From Verrucomicrobiota bacterium (lineage in GTDB: Bacteria; Verrucomicrobiota; Verrucomicrobiia; Opitutales; UBA953), in the NCBI GenBank assembly GCA_030830965.1, contig JAURLX010000004.1, forward strand, positions 310,001-374,000: a DNA stretch of 64,000 nucleotides, given 5' to 3'. Shown here one piece after another: positions 38,416 to 52,025 of the stretch. Every line of letters starts with the position of its first letter. Within the stretch, counting starts at the first letter, position 1. The notes under the pieces are model-generated. The model was not told the DNA's origin, searched no databases, and saw only the letters and a program-made list of their open reading frames with translations. The position numbers and the translations under genes are program-made.

Positions 38416-39095
38416 CGGCGGACCGACGCCTCCAGCATCTTGATCCAGGGGCCGACGAAGTGGCCGTTGTCGTGGAAGGTGCGGCCGCTGACCATGTGGC
38501 GGTCGATCACGCAGGGCTCATTGACGAAGACGCCGCCGCAGACTTCGAGGTCGAACTTGCACTTGGGCACCGTGGCCATGCGCAGGCCCTTCACGATGCC
38601 GGCGCGGGCGGGGATCTCGACGCCGTGGCAGACGCTGGCCATCGGCCGGCCGTGCTCCCACATCCAGCGCGTGACGCGGAGCAGGTCCTCGTCCTCGCGG
38701 AGGTATTCCGGCGCCCGGCCGCCGCTGAAGAAGATGCCGGCGTAGTCCTCGGGCCGGATGTCCTTGAAGGCGACGTCGGCGTTAATCGAGTAGCCCTCCC
38801 ATTCCTTGGTGATTGTCCAGCCGGGCTTCACCTCGTGCATCACCATGTTGTAGGGACGCACAGTGGGCGCGGCCACCACGGGCTGGAAGCCGGCCTCGAT
38901 CAGCCGGTAGAACGGATAGAGCGTGTCGACCGTCTCCGCGGCGTCCCCGATGACCACGAGCACCTTGGGCTTGCCGGCGCTGGCGGGCAGGTGGGCGCCT
39001 GAGGAGATCGAGCCCTGATTGCGGTTGTCGATGAGTCCGCCGGCGCCCCTAGGGGCTTCCTGGGCGGACCTCGGGTGCGGGGCGAGAGGGTCCAT
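38412..39095 (-). CDS. DJ-1/PfpI-family protein
   Basis: A class-I glutamine-amidotransferase-like domain protein of the DJ-1/PfpI superfamily, which includes proteases, glyoxalases and chaperones. The 227-residue product has KPKVLVVIGDAAETVDTLYPFY, the GIFFSGGRAPEYLR motif and the nucleophile elbow MASVCHGVE with C156-H157. The first 40 residues have no family similarity, so the true start may be internal. It heads a four-gene operon with the Tat isomerase, pentaheme cytochrome and propeller. Confidence 0.88.
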   Translation of the reverse strand: MDPLAPHPRSAQEAPRGAGGLIDNRNQGSISSGAHLPASAGKPKVLVVIGDAAETVDTLYPFYRLIEAGFQPVVAAPTVRPYNMVMHEVKPGWTITKEWEGYSINADVAFKDIRPEDYAGIFFSGGRAPEYLREDEDLLRVTRWMWEHGRPMASVCHGVEIPARAGIVKGLRMATVPKCKFDLEVCGGVFVNEPCVIDRHMVSGRTFHDNGHFVGPWIKMLEASVRR

Positions 39096-39222
39096 GCCTT
39101 TTGACTATTCACCCACGCGGGGGATTGGAAGTTATTTGGAGGCCGGACGCTGTGAACAACCCGAACGTCGGACGTTCGGCACGCTTGCCACGGCGGGACT
39201 TTGGGGCACGCTGGGCTCTCCC
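39096..39222. promoter_or_regulatory. Divergent region with a perfect 9-bp palindrome upstream of clpP
   Basis: The gap between the DJ-1 operon (minus) and clpP (plus) contains CCGAACGTC-G-GACGTTCGG at 39161-39179, a perfect inverted repeat with one central base. It resembles a repressor operator. It is not followed by a T-run, so it is not a typical terminator. The inner GAAC/GTTC halves are 7 bases apart, not 4 as in Gram-positive LexA boxes. It could control either gene set. Confidence 0.5.
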
Positions 39223-39831
39223 ATGCCCACCGACGACGAAGAAGAGGACGAGAAGACCCCGGAGGCCGCCAAGGAAGCGTCCCCGAGCGCCGCGCTCATC
39301 CAGAAGAAGTTCCTGGAGCAGCGTAAGATCTTCCTCTGGGGCGGCGTCGACGACGCCTCCGCCAAGGACATCGTCGAAAAACTCCTGTATCTGGAGTCCG
39401 ACGCCCCGGGCAAGGAGATCACCTTCTACATCAACACCCCCGGCGGTTCCATCACGGCCGGCATGGCGGTCTACGACACCATCCGCCTCATCTCCTCGCC
39501 CGTGAAGGTCGTGGTCACGGGCATGGCCGCCTCGATGGGCTCCATCCTGCTCCAGGCTCCCAAGCAGAAGGGCGGCCGGCTGGTCTTCCCCCACGCCCGC
39601 GTGATGATCCATCAGCCCCTGATCATGGGCCGCATCCAGGCCCCGGCGGTCGACATCCACATCCAGGCGCAGGAGATGGAGCGTCTCCGCGCCGAACTCA
39701 ACGAGATCCTCGCCAAGGCCTCCGGCCAGAAGCTGGACAAGGTGGTCAAGGACACGGACCGCGACTTCTACATGACCGCGGAGGAGGCCATCGAGTACGG
39801 CCTCGCCGACGCGATCGTGAAGAAGCTCTGA
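39223..39831 (+). CDS. clpP: ATP-dependent Clp protease proteolytic subunit
   Basis: The cytoplasmic serine peptidase of the Clp machine. The ATG at 39223 (MPTDDEEEDEKT) gives 202 residues with an acidic N-terminus. The catalytic triad is S104 (GMAASMGSILL), H130 (ARVMIHQP) and D181 (DTDRDFYM); the D-R-D oligomerisation residues are present. No clpX or clpA gene is adjacent. A rhomboid protease gene follows by 11 bases. Upstream in-frame sequence to 39019 has no family similarity. Confidence 0.96.
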   Translation: MPTDDEEEDEKTPEAAKEASPSAALIQKKFLEQRKIFLWGGVDDASAKDIVEKLLYLESDAPGKEITFYINTPGGSITAGMAVYDTIRLISSPVKVVVTGMAASMGSILLQAPKQKGGRLVFPHARVMIHQPLIMGRIQAPAVDIHIQAQEMERLRAELNEILAKASGQKLDKVVKDTDRDFYMTAEEAIEYGLADAIVKKL

Positions 39832-39842
39832 CTTTCGGGCGC

Positions 39843-40739
39843 ATGGGCGTCGGCGACCGGACGTACATGCGCGGCCCCCGCCCGGCCGCCGAACCACGGC
39901 CCCTCGCCCAGTGGGCGGTGGGCGCGCTGGTCCTCTTCTTCATCGTCGGTCTGGTCGGGGACTCCGCACGCTCCGACCTGCTCGGATGGGCCGAGCTGCG
40001 TACGCCCGGCGCACGACCCTGGCAGTGGTTCACCTACGCCTTCGTGCACGACGGCTTCTGGCACCTGCTGGGCAACGGGCTGCTGCTCTGGTGGACGGGC
40101 GCCATCGTCGAACGCGAGCGGGGGACGCGCGTCTTCGTCGGCGTGCTGACGGCGGGCACGGCGGTCGGCGCGCTGGCCTGGTGGGCCACGGGCCTCGGCG
40201 GCTCTGGACGCGGCGTCCTGATCGGGGCTTCCGCCGCGACGCATGCGACGATACTGGTCGCGCTGCTCGGGCGGCTCGAGGACCGCATCACGGTGCTGCT
40301 CTTCTTCTTCCTGCCGGTCAACATGAAGGTCCGCTGGGTGGTCGCGCTCACGGCGGCCTTCGCCGTCGCGGGCTGGATTTTCTCCGAGCTGCCGATGCGC
40401 AACGACTGGCGGGCCTGGCGGCCCGCCTGGGAATCCTCGGTGGCCCATTCGGCCCACCTCGGTGGCCTCCTGGTGGGCCTGCTGGCCTGGCGCCGGGGCC
40501 GACAGACGGAAACGGCGCCCGGCTACGCTCAGAGGGAGATGCCGGACGGACGCACAGCCTATTCCGATCACCCCGAGTTCGCCCACGCGGGCGAGGAGGA
40601 GGCCCCGGAAGGGCTCAGCCGAGCCAGGGCTCGGGCCGAGCTGGACGCCCTCCTCGACAAGATCTCGGCCCGGGGATTCGGCTCGCTCACCCCCGAGGAG
40701 AAACGCAGACTTGAAGAACTCAGCGCGAGACTGCGCTGA
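39843..40739 (+). CDS. Rhomboid-family intramembrane serine protease
   Basis: A six-helix membrane protease. The 298-residue product has AFVHDGFWHLLGNGLLLWWTGAIVE (the HxxxN-type helix 2), the active serine S130 in GASA (a GxSx variant) and H205 in AHSAHLGGLLVG. A soluble C-terminal tail of about 80 residues ends in LLDKISARGFGSLTPEEKRRLEELS, a short helical module seen on rhomboids of Bacteroidetes and Verrucomicrobia. The gene follows clpP closely, with prc 10 bases downstream. Confidence 0.9.
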   Translation: MGVGDRTYMRGPRPAAEPRPLAQWAVGALVLFFIVGLVGDSARSDLLGWAELRTPGARPWQWFTYAFVHDGFWHLLGNGLLLWWTGAIVERERGTRVFVGVLTAGTAVGALAWWATGLGGSGRGVLIGASAATHATILVALLGRLEDRITVLLFFFLPVNMKVRWVVALTAAFAVAGWIFSELPMRNDWRAWRPAWESSVAHSAHLGGLLVGLLAWRRGRQTETAPGYAQREMPDGRTAYSDHPEFAHAGEEEAPEGLSRARARAELDALLDKISARGFGSLTPEEKRRLEELSARLR

Positions 40740-40749
40740 AACCCCGACC

Positions 40750-42963
40750 ATGCGCCCGTTCCTGACGCTACTCCTCGCCGTTGCCCTCTGCGCGGCGGCC
40801 GAACAGCCCGCCTTCACGACCACCGAGTCGATCCAAAAGGAGACGCGCGCCACCGCCATGCTCCTCGAGCGGCTGCACATCACCCGACGCGCCATGTCCA
40901 CGATCGACATGCGCGAGGTGCTGCTCACCTACTGCGAGAACCTCGACCGGATGAAGATGTACTTCACCCAGGCCGAGGTGGATGAATTCGTGGAGCGCTA
41001 TGCCAAGTCGCTCGACCTCTACATGGAGCGGGGCAACCTCACCCCAGCCTTCGAGATCTACGCCCTCTTCAGCCGCAAGGCCGAGGAACGCGGCCGCCTG
41101 GTGAAGGAGGCGCTCAGCCGCCCGATCGACCTGGCCCGTGAGGGCACCTTCCCCGCCGACCGACGCAAGGCGGGCTGGCCCAAGTCCGACGTCGAGGCCG
41201 ACGACCTCTGGGTGCGGCGGCTGCAGTTCGACCTGCTGGGCGAGCTGCTCGGCGACGACAAGTCCGGCGCCAAGGACCCCGCAGCCAAGGAGCAGAACAG
41301 CAGGCCCGACCTCTCCGCGGCCAAGGTTGCCGAAGCCGTCGAGCGCCTCCGCAAGCGCTACGAGAAGGCGCACTCCTACCTCCGCCTGGAGCAGCACGAG
41401 GTCGAGGAAGCCTTCCTCAACGCCTACACGCAGCAGTATGACCCGCACTCGACCTTCATGTCGGGCCAGACGCTCGAGGAGTTCGAGATCGCGATGCGCA
41501 ACTCGCTCTGCGGCATCGGCGCCACGCTCTCCGACGAGGATGGCTACTGCGTCATCAAGGACATCCTTCCGGGCGGCCCGCTCGACCAATCGGGCAAGGC
41601 CAAGCCGGGCGACAAGATCATCGCGGTCAGCCAGGGCGACGGAGCCCCCGAGGACATCGTGGGCATGCGCCTCGACCGCGCCATCACCCGCATCCGCGGC
41701 AAGCAGGGCACGACGGTCCGGCTGACGCTCGACAAGGCCGCCGGCGGCCGCGAGACGATCGCCCTCAAGCGCGACCAGATCAAGCTGGTGGGCCAGCTCG
41801 CCTCCGCCCGATTCTTCGAGATGCCCGCGGGCAAGGACTTCGTCTCGGTCGGGGTCGTCGACCTCCCCTCCTTCTACGGCAAGAACCCCGACGGCACGGG
41901 CTCGAGCCCCACCGCCGACGTCGAGGAGCTCATCGGTAAGCTCAAGAAGATGGGCATGCAGGCGCTCATCATGGACCTGCGTCGCAACGGGGGCGGGCTG
42001 CTCACCGAGGCGGTCGACCTCTCCGGACTCTTCATCCCCAAGGGCTCGGTGCTCCAAGTCCGCGACAGCCAGGGGCGGCAGGAGGACTACCGCGACGAGA
42101 ACGAGAAGGTCGCCTGGGACGGCCCGCTCATCGTCCTCACCTCCAAGCGATCGGCCTCGGCCTCCGAGATCTTCGCGGGAGCGATGCACGACCACCGTCG
42201 CGCCATCGTGGTCGGGGACCAGACGACCCACGGCAAGGGCTCCGTCCAGAACATCATCGAGCTAAGCCGCTTCGACCGGAAGCTGAAGTCGGCGGTCAAG
42301 GTGACGATCCAGAAGTGGTACGCGCCCAGCGGCTCATCGATCCAGCTCAAGGGCGTGCCCGCCGACATCGTGGTGCCCTCGGTCTGGTCGGTCCTGCCCA
42401 ACGCCGAGTCCGACCTGGAGCGCCCGCTGCCCTGGGATTCGGTCAAGCCCTCGCTGACCGAGCCTGACCTGGGCCCATGGCTCAAGGCCAAGGTATCCGA
42501 CGACCTCATCGCCCAGCTCGCCGCCGCCAGCGAACGCCGCCGTGCGGAGCTGCCGGAGTTCCTCACGCAGGGACGCCTGATCGAATGGACGCGCAGCCGG
42601 CAGGAACGGCAGGAGCTGCCCATCTCGCTCGAGGCCCGTCAGCGGGAGAAGGCCGATGACGCGGCCTTCCGTGAGCAGGTCCGCAAGGAGCTGTCCTCTT
42701 ATGCCGCCTCCCGGTCGATCAAGATCAGCGAAGTGAAGGTCGAGGCCGCCCTCGAGCAGGAGAAGAAGGACGCCGCCTCGCCCTACGGCAAGAACCGCAA
42801 GGGCAAGGGCCGCGACCCGCTCTCGGACGACGAGGAATGGCCCGACTACGACGTGCAGCTCAACGAGGCGGTCCGCATCGCGACCGACTGGACGACCCGG
42901 CTCGGCGGCGCCACGGTGGCCGCGGCCCCGGACGCGCGAAAGAAGCCGGTCGAGGCCAAGTGA
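40750..42963 (+). CDS. prc: Tail-specific periplasmic protease (Prc/Tsp)
   Basis: A periplasmic S41 peptidase that degrades proteins from their C-terminal ends. The ATG at 40750 gives 737 residues with a signal peptide (MRPFLTLLLAVALCAAAE). Order: helical N-terminal region, a PDZ domain near 240-330 (GGPLDQSGKAKPGDKIIAV), the S41 core with MDLRRNGGGLLTEAVDL, the Ser-Lys dyad S470 (SASASEIFAG) and K496 (THGKGSVQ), and a long C-terminal helical domain like Tsp DUF3340. Length is near that of E. coli Prc. It is the third protease gene in a row. Confidence 0.94.
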   Translation: MRPFLTLLLAVALCAAAEQPAFTTTESIQKETRATAMLLERLHITRRAMSTIDMREVLLTYCENLDRMKMYFTQAEVDEFVERYAKSLDLYMERGNLTPAFEIYALFSRKAEERGRLVKEALSRPIDLAREGTFPADRRKAGWPKSDVEADDLWVRRLQFDLLGELLGDDKSGAKDPAAKEQNSRPDLSAAKVAEAVERLRKRYEKAHSYLRLEQHEVEEAFLNAYTQQYDPHSTFMSGQTLEEFEIAMRNSLCGIGATLSDEDGYCVIKDILPGGPLDQSGKAKPGDKIIAVSQGDGAPEDIVGMRLDRAITRIRGKQGTTVRLTLDKAAGGRETIALKRDQIKLVGQLASARFFEMPAGKDFVSVGVVDLPSFYGKNPDGTGSSPTADVEELIGKLKKMGMQALIMDLRRNGGGLLTEAVDLSGLFIPKGSVLQVRDSQGRQEDYRDENEKVAWDGPLIVLTSKRSASASEIFAGAMHDHRRAIVVGDQTTHGKGSVQNIIELSRFDRKLKSAVKVTIQKWYAPSGSSIQLKGVPADIVVPSVWSVLPNAESDLERPLPWDSVKPSLTEPDLGPWLKAKVSDDLIAQLAAASERRRAELPEFLTQGRLIEWTRSRQERQELPISLEARQREKADDAAFREQVRKELSSYAASRSIKISEVKVEAALEQEKKDAASPYGKNRKGKGRDPLSDDEEWPDYDVQLNEAVRIATDWTTRLGGATVAAAPDARKKPVEAK

Positions 42964-44192: not shown

Positions 44193-46073
44193 TTACGCGT
44201 CCGAACGGTCCGTCCAGAGCTGACGGGTCACCTTCAGCAACACATAGCCGCTCACGAGCGTGACGGCGGTGAGGATCCAGGCGTCGGTCAGTCGGCTGGG
44301 GTCGCCCGCGGCGTAGAGGAAACTGCCGATGGCGAAGAGCGCGCCCCAGATCAGCGCGCAGCCGGCGATCCAGCCCACGAAGGCGGAACCGACACGGTTC
44401 TCCCGGGCGGTCTCGGCATCGCCGATGCCAGCCTCGGCGCGGATGTCCGTCCAGCCCGGACCGGCGGGCTTCACCTTGCGGCAGAAAGCGACGAGGGTCG
44501 CGCGCTCCGTCTGCGGGCCCACGTAGGCGGTGATGAGCCAAGCGACGGTGGTGAGGCCGACCTGCCAGAGGGTCGTCGTGGCGAAATCGGCCTGCGGCAT
44601 GGCCAGCGGGACGCCCACGGCGGTCACGAGCGACATGACCATGGCAACGACCTCGCACCAGGCGGAGACGCGCCACCAGAACCAGCGGGCGATGTAGAGC
44701 AGGCCGGTGCCGGCACCGATTGACAGCAGGACCTGGAAGGCCTGCTGGGCGGAAGTCATGTAGAGGCTGAGCACCGCGGCGACCACGTAAAGGAACACGG
44801 TCGAGAGGCGCCCGACGTTCACATAGTGGGCCTCGGAGGCGTCCTTCTTCATGAAGCGGCGGTAGAAATCATGGACGAGGTATGAAGAGCCCCAGTTGAG
44901 GTGCGTCAGGATCGTCGAAGAGTTGGCGGCGACGAGGCCGCCGATCATCAGGCCGACGAACCCGACCGGCAGGAACATGAGCATCGCCGGGAAGGCGGAG
45001 TCATGGCCGATGAGCGCCGGCTCGGCGTTCGGGAAGGCCTTCTGGATGGAAGCCAGGTCCGGGTAGACGATGATCGAGCACAGGGCGGTGATGATCCACG
45101 GCCACGGGCGGAGCACGTAATGGGCGATGTTGAAGAAGAGCGTGCCGCCGAGGGAGTCCTTCTCGGACTTCGACGCCAGCATGCGCTGGGCGATGTACGA
45201 GCCGCCGCCGGGCTCCGCGCCGGGATACCAGTTGGCCCACCAGCTGATGGCGATGGGCAGGATGAAGACCATCAGCGCCAGCTCCGACATCGAGAAGTTC
45301 GGCAGCATGTCCAACAGCGGCTGGCCCTTGCCGTCGGCGGCCGACATCGCCGGCACGCCGGCGGTCGTCACGACCTGCTGCGTCGAGAGCTGGGCGACGA
45401 GAGCCTTCAGTCCTGCCCAACCGCCCGCACCCTTGCCGACCAGCCGCTCGCCGACCTCGACGAGCGAGAACCACGCCGCGGCGAAGACGGCGGTCATCTT
45501 GATGAAGAACTGCACCATATCGATGACCAGCACGCCCCAGAGGCCGGAGTGGGCGGCGAAGACGACGTTCAGGATGCCGCAGACGACGATCGTCTGCCAG
45601 GCCGGCATGCCGAAGAGGATGTTGGCGATCTTGCACGCGGCGAGGGTCACCATCCCCATGATGAAGCAGTTGAAGAACAGCCCGAGGTAGATGGCGCGGA
45701 AGCCGCGCACGACCGAGGCGGCGGTGCCGGAGTAGCGGTGCTCGTAGAACTCGAGGTCGGTCATGACGCCCGAGCGGCGCCAGAGGCGGGCGAAGAAGAA
45801 GACCGTGGCCACGCCGGTGAGCACGAAAGCCCACCACTGCCAGTTGCCGGCGACGCCGTATTTGCGCACCTGCTCGGTCACCCAGTTCGGGGTGTCCGAC
45901 GAGAACGTCGTCGCCACCATCGAGAGGCCGGCGAGCCACCACGGCACCGAGCGGCCGGAGGCGAAGAACTCGGCGGTGCTGCCGCCCGAGCGCTTCGCGA
46001 GGAAGAGCGCAGGGACGAAACAGATCAGGATCGAAGCCGCGACGATGACCCAATCAATCCAGGTGATATGCAT
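44193..46073 (-). CDS. Sodium:solute symporter (SSS family)
   Basis: A Na+-coupled inner-membrane transporter of the SSS/SGLT group. The ATG at 46073 (MHITWIDWVIVAASILICFVP) gives 626 residues; in-frame sequence upstream is not membrane-like. More than a dozen hydrophobic helices are visible, with the early SSS block SGGSTAEFFASGRSVPWWLAGLSMVATTFSSDTPNWV and ATVFFFARLWRRSGVMTDLEFYEHRY. The substrate (sugar, amino acid or other) cannot be told. Confidence 0.9.
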   Translation of the reverse strand: MHITWIDWVIVAASILICFVPALFLAKRSGGSTAEFFASGRSVPWWLAGLSMVATTFSSDTPNWVTEQVRKYGVAGNWQWWAFVLTGVATVFFFARLWRRSGVMTDLEFYEHRYSGTAASVVRGFRAIYLGLFFNCFIMGMVTLAACKIANILFGMPAWQTIVVCGILNVVFAAHSGLWGVLVIDMVQFFIKMTAVFAAAWFSLVEVGERLVGKGAGGWAGLKALVAQLSTQQVVTTAGVPAMSAADGKGQPLLDMLPNFSMSELALMVFILPIAISWWANWYPGAEPGGGSYIAQRMLASKSEKDSLGGTLFFNIAHYVLRPWPWIITALCSIIVYPDLASIQKAFPNAEPALIGHDSAFPAMLMFLPVGFVGLMIGGLVAANSSTILTHLNWGSSYLVHDFYRRFMKKDASEAHYVNVGRLSTVFLYVVAAVLSLYMTSAQQAFQVLLSIGAGTGLLYIARWFWWRVSAWCEVVAMVMSLVTAVGVPLAMPQADFATTTLWQVGLTTVAWLITAYVGPQTERATLVAFCRKVKPAGPGWTDIRAEAGIGDAETARENRVGSAFVGWIAGCALIWGALFAIGSFLYAAGDPSRLTDAWILTAVTLVSGYVLLKVTRQLWTDRSDA

Positions 46074-46279: not shown

Positions 46280-47812
46280 TTACTTGGCCGGAATCTCGTT
46301 CAGCGTATACCAGCCTTCGCTGTGCCAGAGGGTGTCGCCGGCCTTCGACTTGATGTCGCCGAGGGCCAGGTGATGGATGTGGCCGCGGACGAGACCGTCG
46401 ACGACGAGACGCACCTTGAGGCCGTCGGCGGAGACGGTGGCCGACTTGACGGTCGGCGTGGTCTGGTCGACCTCGGGGCTGCCGTAGCTCGACTGGTAGA
46501 TGTAGGTGAAGGTATCGAGGGCGTAGTTCGCGAGGTCGGCGGCCGCGGCGGCGTCGACCGGCTGCGTGAAGGTCACTTCGAAGCCGTCATGCCGCGCGGA
46601 GATGTCATGCATTTCGAACGGCACCTTACCCTTGAAACGCACGCGCTCGAAGGTGAACGGCTTCGAGCCACGCGAGCCCCAGCCGCGGTTGGAGCCGCCG
46701 ACGAAGAGCGTGCCGTCCTCCTGGTCCATGCGGACCGGGATCAGGCCGGCCTCGAACCCGCCGAGGAAGTGGAACACGGCGCCCTGGTAGAGGCCGTTGA
46801 CGTACTCGAGGTTGACGCGCTGAACCTGCGACGCGGTCTGCTCACCGACGAGCATCTGCCCCTCCCATGGGCCGAACTTCCCCTTGGTCATGTCGCAGGC
46901 GATGCCGGAGGGCGAGTTGCCCACTTTGCCGTGCGGCAGGATCACCGCCGGAGGCACGAAGGCGGGGAACTTCAGGCGCTCGGTCAGGATGCGCGAGCCG
47001 CTGGCGGGCTCCGGCGGAGCGGGGAAGTCGGCCAGCGCGGAGGACTTGTTGCCGGTGGGGTTGCCCTGGAAGGAGCCGGGGCGCAGCCACTTGAGCGAGG
47101 AGGATCCGTTCCAGACGCCCTGATTGTCGGTGTAGAACATGTCGCCCTTGGCGTTGGCGCCGATGCCGCCCGGCGAACGGATGCCCGAGGCGGTGGGGAC
47201 AAACCTGCCGTCCGGGGTGATGCGCGCGCACCAACCGCGCCAAGGGGTGTGGGCGTGGAAGGAGCCGGTCAGGCAGAGCACCATCCAGACGTCGCCGTTC
47301 GGGTCAGGGTCGGAGCCGAAAGCGTATTCGTGGTAGTCGCCGCTCACGCCCCACTTGGAGCACACCGAGTCGAAGCTGTCGGCCCGTCCGTCGCCGTCCT
47401 GGTCCGTCAGGCGAGAGAGTTCCGGTCGCTGCATGGCGTAAAGCGAGCCCTCCTTCCAGAACATGCCGAGGGGCTCATGCTGGTTGGAGGCGAACTTGGT
47501 CCACTTGATCTTGGAGAGGTCGTCGCCGTAGGCACCCTCGGCGACCCAGATGTCGCCGCGGCGCGTGCCGATGGCGACCTTCTTGCCGGGCAGGACGGCG
47601 ATGGACGAGACTTCTGTCACCTCGCCCGCAGGGGTGGGGATCTCGACGCGTTCGTAGAACTCAGGCTGGCGGGCTTCGGCGGCGCGGACGGAGTCCGCGG
47701 CGGCCAACTTGCCGGCCTTGGCCGCCTTGGCCGCCTTGGGGGTCTTGGCCGCCGGCGCGGCGGACGCCCCCGCGACGGAGGCGAGCAGGGCGAGGAGGAC
47801 GAGGTTCTTCAT
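46280..47812 (-). CDS. Second exported beta-propeller protein, paired with the PA14 cytochrome
   Basis: The 510-residue product has a signal peptide (MKNLVLLALLASVAGASAA) followed by a Lys/Ala-rich linker. The propeller has EPLGMFWKEGSLYAMQR, the calcium-type loop DQDGDGRADSF, PWRGWCARITPDGRF and GIRSPGGIGANAKGDMFYTDNQG. The end resembles its paralogue at 33944-35428 (FEVTFTQPVDAAAAADLANY, WYTLNEIPAK). The probable role is a periplasmic dehydrogenase-like or sugar-binding partner of the cytochrome encoded 22 bases upstream. A terminator follows. Confidence 0.85.
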   Translation of the reverse strand: MKNLVLLALLASVAGASAAPAAKTPKAAKAAKAGKLAAADSVRAAEARQPEFYERVEIPTPAGEVTEVSSIAVLPGKKVAIGTRRGDIWVAEGAYGDDLSKIKWTKFASNQHEPLGMFWKEGSLYAMQRPELSRLTDQDGDGRADSFDSVCSKWGVSGDYHEYAFGSDPDPNGDVWMVLCLTGSFHAHTPWRGWCARITPDGRFVPTASGIRSPGGIGANAKGDMFYTDNQGVWNGSSSLKWLRPGSFQGNPTGNKSSALADFPAPPEPASGSRILTERLKFPAFVPPAVILPHGKVGNSPSGIACDMTKGKFGPWEGQMLVGEQTASQVQRVNLEYVNGLYQGAVFHFLGGFEAGLIPVRMDQEDGTLFVGGSNRGWGSRGSKPFTFERVRFKGKVPFEMHDISARHDGFEVTFTQPVDAAAAADLANYALDTFTYIYQSSYGSPEVDQTTPTVKSATVSADGLKVRLVVDGLVRGHIHHLALGDIKSKAGDTLWHSEGWYTLNEIPAK

Positions 47813-47834: not shown

Positions 47835-49415
47835 TCAGCGGAAAGAATAGCCGAGGACGGCGGTCTCGCCGGGCTTCAGGGTGACCGTGAGGGTCTTCGC
47901 CTCGGGGTCGGCCTTGGGCGAAGGCCCGCCGAGGGAACGCACCCGCAGGCCGCCGGGGAGGTCGGTGACGCCGTCGGACGGGCCGTTCACGGCGAGTCCG
48001 CGCGCGAGCACGACGACAAGCGGCTTGTCGCCGGCGGCCTTGAGCGTGCGGGTGAGCGAAGGCTTGCCGGAGCTCTCCTCCGGCAGCCAAGCGTCGGTGA
48101 GCGCGCAGCCTTCGCCGGCGGAGCGGAAGGTCGGATTGCCCGCCTTGTCGAGGTCGTAGCCCTTGAACTCGGCGGCGACGTTGACCGTGGAGAACTTCCA
48201 CTCGTTGCCCTCCTTTTCGCGAATGTAGCGCACGACTTCGCCGGAGGCGCCTTCGAGCAGCACGCCCTGGCCGTCGGACAGCTTGATGATGTTGGTGCCG
48301 GCGGGCGGCTCGTTGCCCTGGCCGCGGTTGGTCCAGTGCCGGCCGCCGTCCATGAACTTACCGGTCCAGATCAGCTCGGCGGCGAGGTTGTCCGCGCTGT
48401 AGGCGATGTTGAGGCCGTTGGGGAAGCCGATGCCGATCGCGCGGGGAGCGGTGTTGTCGATGAAGTTGCGGTAGATCGCGGCGACGCCGTCGACCGGCTG
48501 GATCGGGATCGACACCCTCTCCTGGGCGGGCTTGCCGGCCTTGCCGCCCCTGGCCTTGGAGAGCCACTTGTAATCCCGATCCTTCGGCCCCTTGTAGCCG
48601 AGCACGACGACCTCCTGGCCGGCGACCTCGACGTACTCCACGCGCAGCGGGGTCGGGCCCTTCTTGAGCATGACGGGCACCTCCTTGGCGCGGCCGCCGA
48701 TGGGACCGATGCCCTTGACCTCGGCGATGCGCTCGCCGCCGACGTAGAGCGCGCCGAAGTCGTCGCAGTCGAAGAGGAAGGTGTACTTGCCATCCTCCGG
48801 CACCTCGAACTGACCGGTCCAGACCATCGCGAAATGATCCTTCTGGCCGGACTGGGCCGGGTCGATCACGCCGAGGTTGAAGTCCTCCATGAGCGCGGGC
48901 TTGAGCGCGGAGAAGTCAGGCAGGGTCTTCCATTCGCCCTTGTACATCATGCCCACGAGGCTCTTCAGCGCGGTCCGCGCGGGCGGGAACGGATGATCCT
49001 TGAGGAGTTCGGCGGCGGTCCACGGGGTGGCGCGGCCGGCGGTCGCGGCCCGCACGGCCTTCACTTCATCGACGGAGACGGGGCCGGCGCCGCCGGCGAA
49101 GGTCCTGCGGACGTACGTCAGGGCGGCGGCGATCTTCTCATCGCTGAGGACGGCGCCCTGCGGGGGCATCTCGATGTTATAGGGCTTGCCGGCGACTTCG
49201 ACCGGACCGGTCATCCCATTGAGGACGATCTTGATCGAACGCGCGGCGGGACCCTTGGGCCAGTCGCTGCCGACCAGAGGCGGCAGACCGTTGAGGCCCT
49301 TGCCGTCGGGCCCGTGGCAGGCGACGCAGAGGGTACCGTAGACCTGAGCGCCGTCCTCCGCGGCGGAGACGAGGATAGCCGAGGCCAGCAGGGCGAGAAG
49401 CGGGGCGGAGCGCAT
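47835..49415 (-). CDS. Exported monoheme cytochrome c with a PA14 domain
   Basis: The ATG at 49415 gives 526 residues with a signal peptide (MRSAPLLALLASAILVSAAE). The N-terminal cytochrome module carries CVACH at 30-34 and a methionine ligand region near IEMPPQG. A PA14-type carbohydrate-binding domain spans about 150-275 (GQFEVPEDGKYTFLFDCDD, GALYVGGERIAE). Residues about 305-526 are related to the heme-free C-terminus of the pentaheme cytochrome at 35425-37482 (RAIGIGFPNGLNIAYSADN). It forms an operon with the propeller gene. Confidence 0.88.
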   Translation of the reverse strand: MRSAPLLALLASAILVSAAEDGAQVYGTLCVACHGPDGKGLNGLPPLVGSDWPKGPAARSIKIVLNGMTGPVEVAGKPYNIEMPPQGAVLSDEKIAAALTYVRRTFAGGAGPVSVDEVKAVRAATAGRATPWTAAELLKDHPFPPARTALKSLVGMMYKGEWKTLPDFSALKPALMEDFNLGVIDPAQSGQKDHFAMVWTGQFEVPEDGKYTFLFDCDDFGALYVGGERIAEVKGIGPIGGRAKEVPVMLKKGPTPLRVEYVEVAGQEVVVLGYKGPKDRDYKWLSKARGGKAGKPAQERVSIPIQPVDGVAAIYRNFIDNTAPRAIGIGFPNGLNIAYSADNLAAELIWTGKFMDGGRHWTNRGQGNEPPAGTNIIKLSDGQGVLLEGASGEVVRYIREKEGNEWKFSTVNVAAEFKGYDLDKAGNPTFRSAGEGCALTDAWLPEESSGKPSLTRTLKAAGDKPLVVVLARGLAVNGPSDGVTDLPGGLRVRSLGGPSPKADPEAKTLTVTLKPGETAVLGYSFR

Positions 49416-49521: not shown

Positions 49522-50817
49522 TCAGCGGGCCCGATAAAGCCCGTGGGGGTCGTAAATCCACCAGGCGTCGAACGGGTTGGAAAGCGGGGGCAGCTCGTAA
49601 TAGGGACGGCCCTTGTCGTCGACCTTGGCCGTCACGCCGCTGATTTCGGTCTGGGGCGGACGGATGACCGGGGGCGTGGGCGCGGCGGGCGGCGGGATGA
49701 TGTCGAGGATGGCCGTCTCCTCGATGCGCTCCACGGTCGTGTCGACCCACTTCAGCTCGCGGGCTTTCTCGCCGAAGGCCTGCCAGTCGCCGGTCGAGTC
49801 GTTGGCGTACATCTGCTTCACGAACTCCTCGAGGCTGATGCCCATCTTCTTGGCGACCGGCGTGCCGAGGCGGTCGAACCACTCGGTGGTGAAGCGGATC
49901 TGCTCCTTGAGCACGGTCATGTTGCCGCGCAGGTTGTTGGAGACCTGGTGATGCAGGATGATGCTGTTGGGGTAGCAGAAGGAGCGCTCGGCCAGGGTCG
50001 TGATCACCGCGGTCATCGAGGCGGCGAAGCCCTTCACGACGACGTACACGGGCGCCTTGGAGGCGGCCATGGCCTTCTGGATCTGGTAGCCAGCCGAGAC
50101 GGAGCCGCCCGGGCTGCTGTCGACCACGATGAAGATCGGGAACTCGGTGGACTGGTTGTTATAGAAGTTGATGCGCTGGACGACGTAGTCGGCGAGCTGG
50201 TCGGTGACGGCGCCGTTGAAGGGGATGCGACGGTCGCTGATGTACAGCACCCCGTCGATGAGCGGGTCCTTGACGTAGCGGGGCTTGGCCCGGGTGGCCA
50301 CCTTGCGCGACTCCTCCTCCTTCTGGAAACGGTTGAGCTCGTTGGTCAGGCGGGCGACGGTGTTGCCGGCCTCGAGCTGGAGTTGCTTGGCCTCGGCCTC
50401 GAGCTCGCGGATACGGTTCATGCGGTCGGCGAGACGGGCGGAGGAGCGGGCGGCCTCCAGGGAGGTCTGCCGTTCGAGCCTGGCCTTCTCGTCCTCGAGC
50501 GCGGCGGCCTCGGCGGCGGCCTTCGCGAGACGGAGGGCGCGCTCGGCGGAGAGCTTGGCGGTCTCCGCGGCGAGGGGCGCGAGCTCCTCGGCGCGACGGG
50601 CCTCGGCGAGCGCGACCTGGGCGTCGATGCGGGCCTTCTCGCCGCGCATGCGTTCGACCTCCTTCATCAGTTCCTTCTGCTCGGGGGTGAGCTCGGGGCC
50701 GGTGCGCTGGGCGGCCGGGACGGCCGGGGCGGCCGGCGCGGCGGGGGCCGCCTGCTGGGCGACGAGAGGCGCGACGGCGAGCGCGAGAAGCGCGGGGAGG
50801 ATGCGGTGCATGTTCAT
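49522..50817 (-). CDS. Exported coiled-coil protein with a ClpP-like protease domain, copy 2
   Basis: The 431-residue product starts with a signal peptide (MHRILPALLALAVAPLVAQ), then an Ala/Pro linker, then a long charged coiled coil (about 45-175). The C-terminal domain, from about residue 185, is ClpP-like. The triad is S267 (GFAASMTAVITT), H290 (IILHHQ) and D344 (STGDW). ClpP's D-R oligomerisation residues before the Asp are T-G here. The domain ends in a Pro-rich linker and PFDAWWIYDPHGLYRAR. It lies 17 bases downstream of its paralogue. An ATP-independent envelope protease is the natural guess; the substrate is unknown. Confidence 0.85.
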   Translation of the reverse strand: MNMHRILPALLALAVAPLVAQQAAPAAPAAPAVPAAQRTGPELTPEQKELMKEVERMRGEKARIDAQVALAEARRAEELAPLAAETAKLSAERALRLAKAAAEAAALEDEKARLERQTSLEAARSSARLADRMNRIRELEAEAKQLQLEAGNTVARLTNELNRFQKEEESRKVATRAKPRYVKDPLIDGVLYISDRRIPFNGAVTDQLADYVVQRINFYNNQSTEFPIFIVVDSSPGGSVSAGYQIQKAMAASKAPVYVVVKGFAASMTAVITTLAERSFCYPNSIILHHQVSNNLRGNMTVLKEQIRFTTEWFDRLGTPVAKKMGISLEEFVKQMYANDSTGDWQAFGEKARELKWVDTTVERIEETAILDIIPPPAAPTPPVIRPPQTEISGVTAKVDDKGRPYYELPPLSNPFDAWWIYDPHGLYRAR

Positions 50818-50834
50818 GGAACGGAGGAAGGGGT

Positions 50835-52025
50835 TCAGCGGAGGACGAACTCGACGGAGGGGTCGTGGATCCACCAGGCGTCGCCGGCCTCGGCGGGGGG
50901 AAGGAACTCGCGGACACGCCCGTCGGACGCGGGGCGCGCGTTGCCGAACACGTCGGGGTCGAGGGGCGCGGGCGGCGGGACGACGCCGGCGACGTTGAAG
51001 GACTCTTCCTTGATCTGCTGGACGACGTCCGTGGCCCAGCGACGGCGCACGGCCTCGTCGCCCAGCACCTTCCAGTCGCCGGTCGAGGCGTTGGCGTACA
51101 TCTGCTTCACGAAGTCGTCGAGCGGCACGCCGACGCGGTCGGCCACCTTGACGAAGATGCGTTCGACCCAGAGCTTGCTCCACTTGAGCTGCTCGTTGAG
51201 CTGGGTGAGGTTGCCGCCGAGGCCGGACGAGGCCTGGTGGTGCAGGACGATGGCCTGGGGGTACACGAAGGAGCGCTTGGCGAGGGTGGTGATGATGGCG
51301 GCCATCGAGGCGGCGTAGCCCTTCACGACGACGTACACGGGCGCCTTGGACGCCTCCATGGCCTGCAGGATCTGGTAGCCGGACATGACGGAGCCGCCGG
51401 GATTGCGGTCGATGATGAGGAAGATGGGCGCCTTGGGGTCGACGGCGTTGTAGAACGCGATGCGCGCGCAGACGTATTCGGCCAGCTGGGAGGTCACGCG
51501 TCCGTTGAAGGGGATGCGGCGGTCGCTCACACGGAGGACGCCGTCGACGAAGGGCTCCTCCGGATGCTCGGTACGGGCGCCGGCCGCGACCTCCGCGACC
51601 TTCTTCTCGAGCATGACGATCTGCGCCGCGGAGGCGACCTTGGCGAGTTCGACGGAGGCCTCGGCGGCCGCCAGACGGGCCTCGACCTCGAGTTCAGCCC
51701 GGGCCCGGTCCTTGTCCACGGAGGCTGCGGCGGCGCGGGCGGCGGAGGCGCCGAGCTCGAGCTTGATGCGATCCTTCTCGGCGTCGTCGCCGGTGGCGAC
51801 GGCGTCGGCACGGGCCTTGCGCAGGAGCGCCTCGGCCTCGAGACCGCGCAGTTCAAGCGAACCGGGCAGCGACTCGAGACGGCGCTTGGCCGCGGCGAGG
51901 TCGAGCCGCGCGCGGATGGCCTCAGTCTCCAGCTCGGCCTTGACGACCTCGGGCGGACGGGGGGACTGCTGGGCGCTCAGGCCCATGGAAAGAAGAAGCA
52001 GGACGGGCAGGACCGGGCGTCGCAT
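50835..52025 (-). CDS. Exported coiled-coil protein with a ClpP-like protease domain, copy 1
   Basis: Starting at 52025 (MRRPVLPVLLLLSMGLSAQQ), the 396-residue product has a signal peptide, a helical Ala/Glu/Arg-rich coiled coil (about 25-150) and a ClpP-like domain. The triad S240 (GYAASMAAIITT), H263 (IVLHHQ) and D317 (NASTGDW) is present. The tail ends DAWWIHDPSVEFVLR, a C-terminal W-W-I-x-D-P motif shared with the next gene. Clearly a tandem duplicate. It is divergent from psd by about 66 bases. Confidence 0.85.
   Translation of the reverse strand: MRRPVLPVLLLLSMGLSAQQSPRPPEVVKAELETEAIRARLDLAAAKRRLESLPGSLELRGLEAEALLRKARADAVATGDDAEKDRIKLELGASAARAAAASVDKDRARAELEVEARLAAAEASVELAKVASAAQIVMLEKKVAEVAAGARTEHPEEPFVDGVLRVSDRRIPFNGRVTSQLAEYVCARIAFYNAVDPKAPIFLIIDRNPGGSVMSGYQILQAMEASKAPVYVVVKGYAASMAAIITTLAKRSFVYPQAIVLHHQASSGLGGNLTQLNEQLKWSKLWVERIFVKVADRVGVPLDDFVKQMYANASTGDWKVLGDEAVRRRWATDVVQQIKEESFNVAGVVPPPAPLDPDVFGNARPASDGRVREFLPPAEAGDAWWIHDPSVEFVLR

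Follow-up and report, generated by a model that had tools for sequence, protein, structure and literature searches.

Introduction

ClpP is the textbook proteolytic core of an ATP-dependent protease, and the well-studied ClpPs need an AAA+ partner for the degradation of folded proteins. The cell envelope, outside the cytoplasm, contains no ATP. The signal-peptide peptidase SppA has the ClpP fold, acts in the envelope and uses a Ser-Lys dyad; the NfeD1b-type (1510-N) membrane proteases carry a signal peptide and a ClpP-like domain. In a 2008 survey of prokaryotic serine proteases, Clp-NfeD was the sole multidomain form of the S14 family (PMC2605481). The ClpP/ClpR cores of chloroplasts are assembled from paralogous subunits, some of them devoid of the triad (PMC6508832), and in Listeria ClpP2 the docking site for the ATPase, if free of an IGF loop, is filled by the C-terminus (PMC9035409). 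Nothing on an exported ClpP in Verrucomicrobiota was found in the open-access literature, including metagenome secretome papers. A pair of genes for predicted proteins of this kind is described here; it lies in a stretch of 64,000 nucleotides (the window, meaning the whole of this stretch) from a genome of 1.8 Mb that is 87% complete.

Gene arrangement and selection

The two genes are arranged in tandem on the minus strand, with 17 bp between them. The upstream member (50835-52025) codes for P0002, of 396 aa, and the downstream member (49522-50817) for P0001, of 431 aa, with an alternative ATG at 50811. As paralogues, the two products share 44% identity over 384 columns. Whole-gene dN/dS against the closest relatives was 0.10-0.16 for P0001 and P0002, and about 0.06 for the helical arm of P0001 (described below); chance open reading frames are excluded for both genes by this purifying selection. 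The same genome also encodes a canonical cytoplasmic ClpP, found at 39.0-39.8 kb of the window (39019-39831, plus strand, start uncertain; domain at 39292-39825).

The catalytic domain

The ClpP domain was located with Pfam and Foldseek at aa 190-370 of P0001 (49708-50250, minus strand), and its counterpart in P0002 covers aa 163-343 (50997-51539, minus strand). Both proteins were assigned to peptidase S14 by the Pfam CLP_protease model (PF00574), at 73.4 bits for P0001 and 74.1 bits for P0002 against a cut-off of 20.2. The triad residues are S267, H290 and D344 in P0001 (the Ser267 codon, in the motif GFAASM, is at 50017-50019, minus strand) and S240, H263 and D317 in P0002. In an alignment of 76 representatives of the family, Ser267, His290 and Asp344 were retained in 74, and the oxyanion glycines Gly237-Gly238 were invariant. 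AlphaFold2 modelled the domain confidently in both proteins (block pLDDT mostly 86-98). Foldseek comparison of the P0001 domain with ClpP chains gave TM scores mostly of 0.81-0.87 at 25-32% identity, with the ClpP of E. faecium ranking first. That a ClpP-type catalytic machinery is maintained under selection is well supported, and activity is predicted.

By sequence and by fold alike, the nearest solved structures were ClpPs and not SppA or NfeD. The pair could in principle substitute for SppA, which is established to have the same fold and the same site of action. That reading is hardly credible: SppA itself (PF01343) is present in the genome of the window and in nearly all relatives with an exported ClpP, and replacement was rejected on account of this coexistence.

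Export signals

The predicted leaders are signal peptides of the Sec type. That of P0001 (aa 1-20; 50758-50817, minus strand), identified from the sequence and the family rule test, reads MNMHRILPALLALAVAPLVA, with QQ following the cleavage site (VA before it); that of P0002 (aa 1-18; 51972-52025, minus strand) reads MRRPVLPVLLLLSMGLSA, again followed by QQ (SA before the site). Signal peptides were scored with a rule that combined a hydrophobic core, a basic n-region and a cleavage site; 72 of the 76 family members fitted it, as against 33% of neighbouring control genes, to which the rule was applied loosely. One of the four exceptions is truncated by the end of its contig, and the other three have a strong hydrophobic core with no basic residue before it, so that every one of the 75 members whose N-terminus is complete has a hydrophobic leader. 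A canonical lipobox was found in three members (Spyradosoma L089, L081 and G082), and several relatives from the gut show the near-lipobox MFAGC; both kinds of leader belong to the downstream gene of the pair. With signal peptides in essentially every member and the three lipoboxes, it is well supported that this ClpP-like family is exported. The original prediction, which had read signal peptides on both proteins and a ClpP-like domain retaining Ser, His and Asp, was borne out on both counts by the family-wide rule test, the Pfam scores and the conservation of the triad.

The database labels are those of ClpP: 'Clp protease' in Pfam and, for the nearest NCBIfam models, 'ATP-dependent Clp protease proteolytic subunit'. 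Taken at face value, the PF00574 match and these model names would suit an ordinary cytoplasmic ClpP paralogue with a misread N-terminus, partnered with ClpX or ClpA. The leaders in 75 of 75 complete N-termini, the three canonical lipoboxes, the replaced pore loop, the altered docking groove (see below) and the separate canonical ClpP in the genome make such a paralogue very improbable, and the label 'ATP-dependent' is probably wrong for an exported protein.

The helical arm

A low-complexity linker rich in Pro and Ala joins the signal peptide to a long predicted helical arm. In the AlphaFold2 model of P0001 the arm is a single helix of 130 residues (aa 45-174; 50296-50685, minus strand; pLDDT about 80-92), rich in Ala, Glu and Arg; in P0002 it is formed by two helices, residues 25-77 and 82-149 (51579-51953, minus strand). 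The sequence match to ClpP begins at about ClpP residue 24-25, and the arm stands in the region of the N-terminal pore loops. It is no filler, since its dN/dS in P0001 is about 0.06.

Long N-terminal coiled coils had been predicted for both proteins. A long and constrained helical arm was indeed recovered; the coiled coil was not. Fourier analysis, carried out per sequence, per sequence window and on family-averaged columns, detected heptad or hendecad periodicity in none of the 76 arms at p<0.05, while the positive controls, tropomyosin and Lpp (typed-in sequences), gave a period of 3.5 at p<0.01. A classical coiled coil was therefore rejected. The arrangement of the arms is ambiguous, because there is no heptad seam and the models differ (one helix in P0001, two in P0002); the arms could pack as a sheet or tube of helices, form a hairpin back on themselves or bind a partner. 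That they provide a new gating principle, as originally suggested, is plausible.

Alternatively, the arms may be tethers and not gates. The proteins would then be peptidases anchored in the envelope, a long helix would hold the catalytic head away from a membrane, from the peptidoglycan or from some partner, and the ClpP head alone would govern the entry of substrates. The P0001 helix, of 130 residues and with no heptad seam, would, if straight, reach about 19 nm at most; it is preceded by the Pro/Ala linker, and a lipobox is present on the downstream gene in Spyradosoma, in an AH.B6_3 relative and in G082, all of which would suit a tether. Most members, however, have a leader of the signal-peptidase-I type and no anchor, the constraint on the P0001 arm is stronger than a plain spacer requires, and the two predicted helices of the P0002 arm could fold back. 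Arms that are tethers and nothing more are considered unlikely; arms at the ring entrance in place of an unfoldase are preferred.

Sensor segment, docking groove and C-terminal tail

The sensor segment reads D-S-T-G-D or A-S-T-G-D in the pair and D-T-D-R-D in the canonical ClpP of the same genome; across the family the Asp-Arg pair is changed to x-Gly, with Gly at the Arg position in 74 of 76 members. In ClpP the Asp-Arg pair links assembly to activity; as it is missing here, tetradecamers may not form in the way that they do in ClpP. Lys262, invariant in the family, falls in the sequence-alignment register at Met92 of E. coli ClpP, a position of the ATPase-docking groove. Phe229, in the same region, is likewise invariant, and some aromatic positions of the groove are retained. 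The loss of the pore loop and the Lys in the docking groove strengthen the suggestion, itself reasonable, that there would be no ATPase partner. The handle helix of the AlphaFold2 model bears N-x-T (N in 75 and T in 71 of 76 members) where ClpP has Q-x-T, a motif that in ClpP stabilises the ring-ring interface (PMC9035409).

Both proteins end in an aromatic tail. The motif is D-A-W-W-I-Y-D-P in P0001 (aa 417-424; 49546-49569, minus strand) and D-A-W-W-I-H-D-P in P0002 (aa 382-389; 50859-50882, minus strand), and a motif of the type D-x-W-W-I-x-D-P was found phylum-wide, in 72 of 76 members, with the family consensus D-x-[WY]-[WFYM]-[ILM]-Y-[DN]-P ... [YF]-R. Two further statements of the original prediction, that the oligomer-sensing D-R pair is missing and that W-W-I-x-D-P stands near both C-termini, were confirmed.

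Distribution in Verrucomicrobiota

A survey of homologues had been proposed with the original prediction. By profile search, the full-length architecture was found in 33 of 388 Verrucomicrobiota genomes (a count taken from the search table), and the E-values set the full-length form (1e-100 or better) clearly apart from canonical ClpP (6e-23 or worse). The family is called a Verrucomicrobiota family in the sense that it was found there by a search within that phylum, and confinement to the phylum is not implied. Within the order, 177 genomes were compared: the exported form was present in every sampled member of the family of the window and in two others, and the remaining genomes gave weak ClpP matches. 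In the wider survey it reaches several families of this order, occurs elsewhere in the class in two families, f29 and f33, and outside the class in two more; it was absent from the densely sampled genus g84 of f29, the other genera of f29 being mostly positive. Searches of plasmids and phages recovered canonical or phage ClpP domains only, and no match over the full length.

The tandem pair is typical of the Opitutales family of the window (f1). Outside that family there is usually a single gene, the exceptions being G422, with an independent tandem copy, and G347, with two distant copies. Named loci with a pair or a single gene are from Opitutales, Opitutae, Puniceicoccales and Candidatus Spyradosoma MAGs, several of which come from lakes or from animal rectum or colon, going by their titles. 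The pair on the MAG contig L037 (CALQLO010000043.1), which is titled Akkermansia muciniphila, falls with those of Opitutales lake MAGs, and its score against the query equals those of L036 and L038; the title probably misnames the organism. In a tree of catalytic domains, support for the split between the exported family and the canonical ClpPs was 100/100, and the branch that separates them is very long.

Triad-less copies

Two of the 76 representatives lack all three triad residues (G082, L018:65-1462, minus strand; G146, L155:7403-8722, minus strand), and each adjoins a tandem paralogue with an intact triad. The triad was lost from the downstream gene in G082 and from the upstream gene in G146, so that two separate losses are likely; the tree joins the two long branches, a join that was flagged. 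From their sequences, these copies would be pseudo-protease subunits, and loss beside an intact neighbour is as expected for mixed rings.

The original prediction had also proposed a hetero-oligomer of the two proteins. This is indirectly supported by the retention of tandem pairs across the family and by the two pairs with a triad-less member. Together these two features render mixed rings likely in the family of the window, comparable to the ClpP/R cores of chloroplasts (PMC6508832). A mixed ring is not needed for the basic function, since the family is phylum-wide and usually single-copy; mixed rings would be confined, at most, to some lineages.

The two triad-less members, in which the architecture is retained, would also suit a role as a scaffold, or as a processing protease for one dedicated envelope substrate, in place of a general peptidase. 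An envelope protein that could be such a substrate (A2) is encoded directly upstream in 11 Verrucomicrobiales-type loci. The triad is intact, however, in the other 74 members, and A2 is missing from the tested Opitutales and present in some protease-free genomes; this role is judged improbable, and a general peptidase is preferred.

Genomic neighbourhood

A2 is a family of conserved membrane-anchored envelope proteins, encoded in the same orientation as the protease gene and usually directly upstream of it in 11 loci of families f29 and f33 (L126, L127, L128, L131, L132, L133, L135, L136, L140, L143 and L145). No relative was found in Pfam or among solved structures. A2 was rejected as an obligate partner or substrate: it occurs without the protease in four f29/f33 relatives and is absent from the tested Opitutales.

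No SPFH (Band_7) protein was found in the genome of the window (87% complete), and a strong SPFH protein was present in four of 14 members of its family, as against 14 of 14 control genomes. A consistent exclusion between SPFH proteins and the exported ClpP was rejected, since other protease-bearing genomes have several of them.

Further genes on the minus strand lie downstream of the pair: 47835-49412 codes for a cytochrome c/PA14 protein, 46280-47812 for a DUF7133-like protein whose leader resembles a signal peptide, and 44193-46073 for a sodium:solute symporter. The cytochrome c/PA14 and DUF7133-like genes come after the pair in some close relatives and not in others. Elsewhere in the window (39019-42963, plus strand), the canonical ClpP appears to have as neighbours a membrane protein of the rhomboid type and a C-terminal processing protease of the PDZ type that carries a signal peptide, an apparent small protease cluster as read from the sequence.

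Proposed mechanism

The preferred reading, to which we give an even chance, is that the pair forms an exported, ATP-independent and self-compartmentalised envelope peptidase with arms at its entrance, a tail over the docking groove and subunits that mix. The ClpP domains would assemble into ClpP-like single or double rings that enclose the active sites, located in the periplasm or, for the lipoprotein versions, at the membrane. The arms are placed at the entrance of the ring because they replace the N-terminal pore loops of ClpP, and there they would act as a fixed helical funnel, a gate or a tether in place of an AAA+ unfoldase. By analogy with the C-terminus of Listeria ClpP2 (PMC9035409), the aromatic tail would cover the groove that ClpX or ClpA uses. 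Substrates would be peptides and envelope proteins that are already unfolded or damaged, degraded without ATP, as the envelope has none. Subunits from the tandem genes would probably mix in one particle.

More tentative, and possible rather than probable, is the extension of this scheme to motor-free extracytoplasmic ClpP barrels throughout the phylum, in which a ring of non-heptad arms gates the pore, the tails plug the docking sites and a triad-less subunit is present in some lineages. If the preferred reading is true, the exported lineage, under selection across the Verrucomicrobiota, would show that gating of a ClpP compartment does not require a motor and would add a kind of envelope protease; the triad-less partners provide a natural test of mixed rings.

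Comparison with known systems

With SppA and the S49 peptidases the pair shares the ClpP fold and, as predicted features, a site at the outer face of the inner membrane and the lack of an ATPase. The exported family differs in conserving the triad His and Asp where SppA has a Ser-Lys dyad; neither protein matched Peptidase_S49 in Pfam, and the best score with the NCBIfam SppA models was 22.7 bits against a cut-off of 155.45. The NfeD1b-type (1510-N) proteases are alike in the combination of signal peptide and ClpP-like domain, whereas the pair is without an NfeD domain and has a His-Asp triad, not Ser-Lys (NfeD1b_N, 21.3 and 17.8 bits; cut-off 40). SDH models also scored below their cut-off. 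The ClpP-like head maturation proteases of phages have the ClpP fold and a divergent N-terminus, and their model gave 48.6 bits against a cut-off of 120. The mixed ClpR and ClpP1P2 cores of chloroplasts, cyanobacteria and Listeria resemble the pair in their paralogous and in part triad-less subunits, and Listeria ClpP2 also in a C-terminal tail over the docking site, but these cores are cytoplasmic or stromal and driven by an ATPase. Cytoplasmic ClpP itself (S14, PF00574) has the same catalytic fold, the same order of Ser, His and Asp and the oxyanion Gly-Gly, and a handle helix that bears Q-x-T where that of the pair has N-x-T; the pair is unlike it in its predicted export, in the arm that replaces the pore loop, in the lack of an Asp-Arg sensor, in the groove Lys and in the aromatic C-terminal extension. 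With the clpP equivalog model TIGR00493, P0001 and P0002 scored 53.6 and 50.1 bits against a cut-off of 308.6. By fold and triad the pair is peptidase S14, yet it belongs to a clade apart from canonical ClpP.
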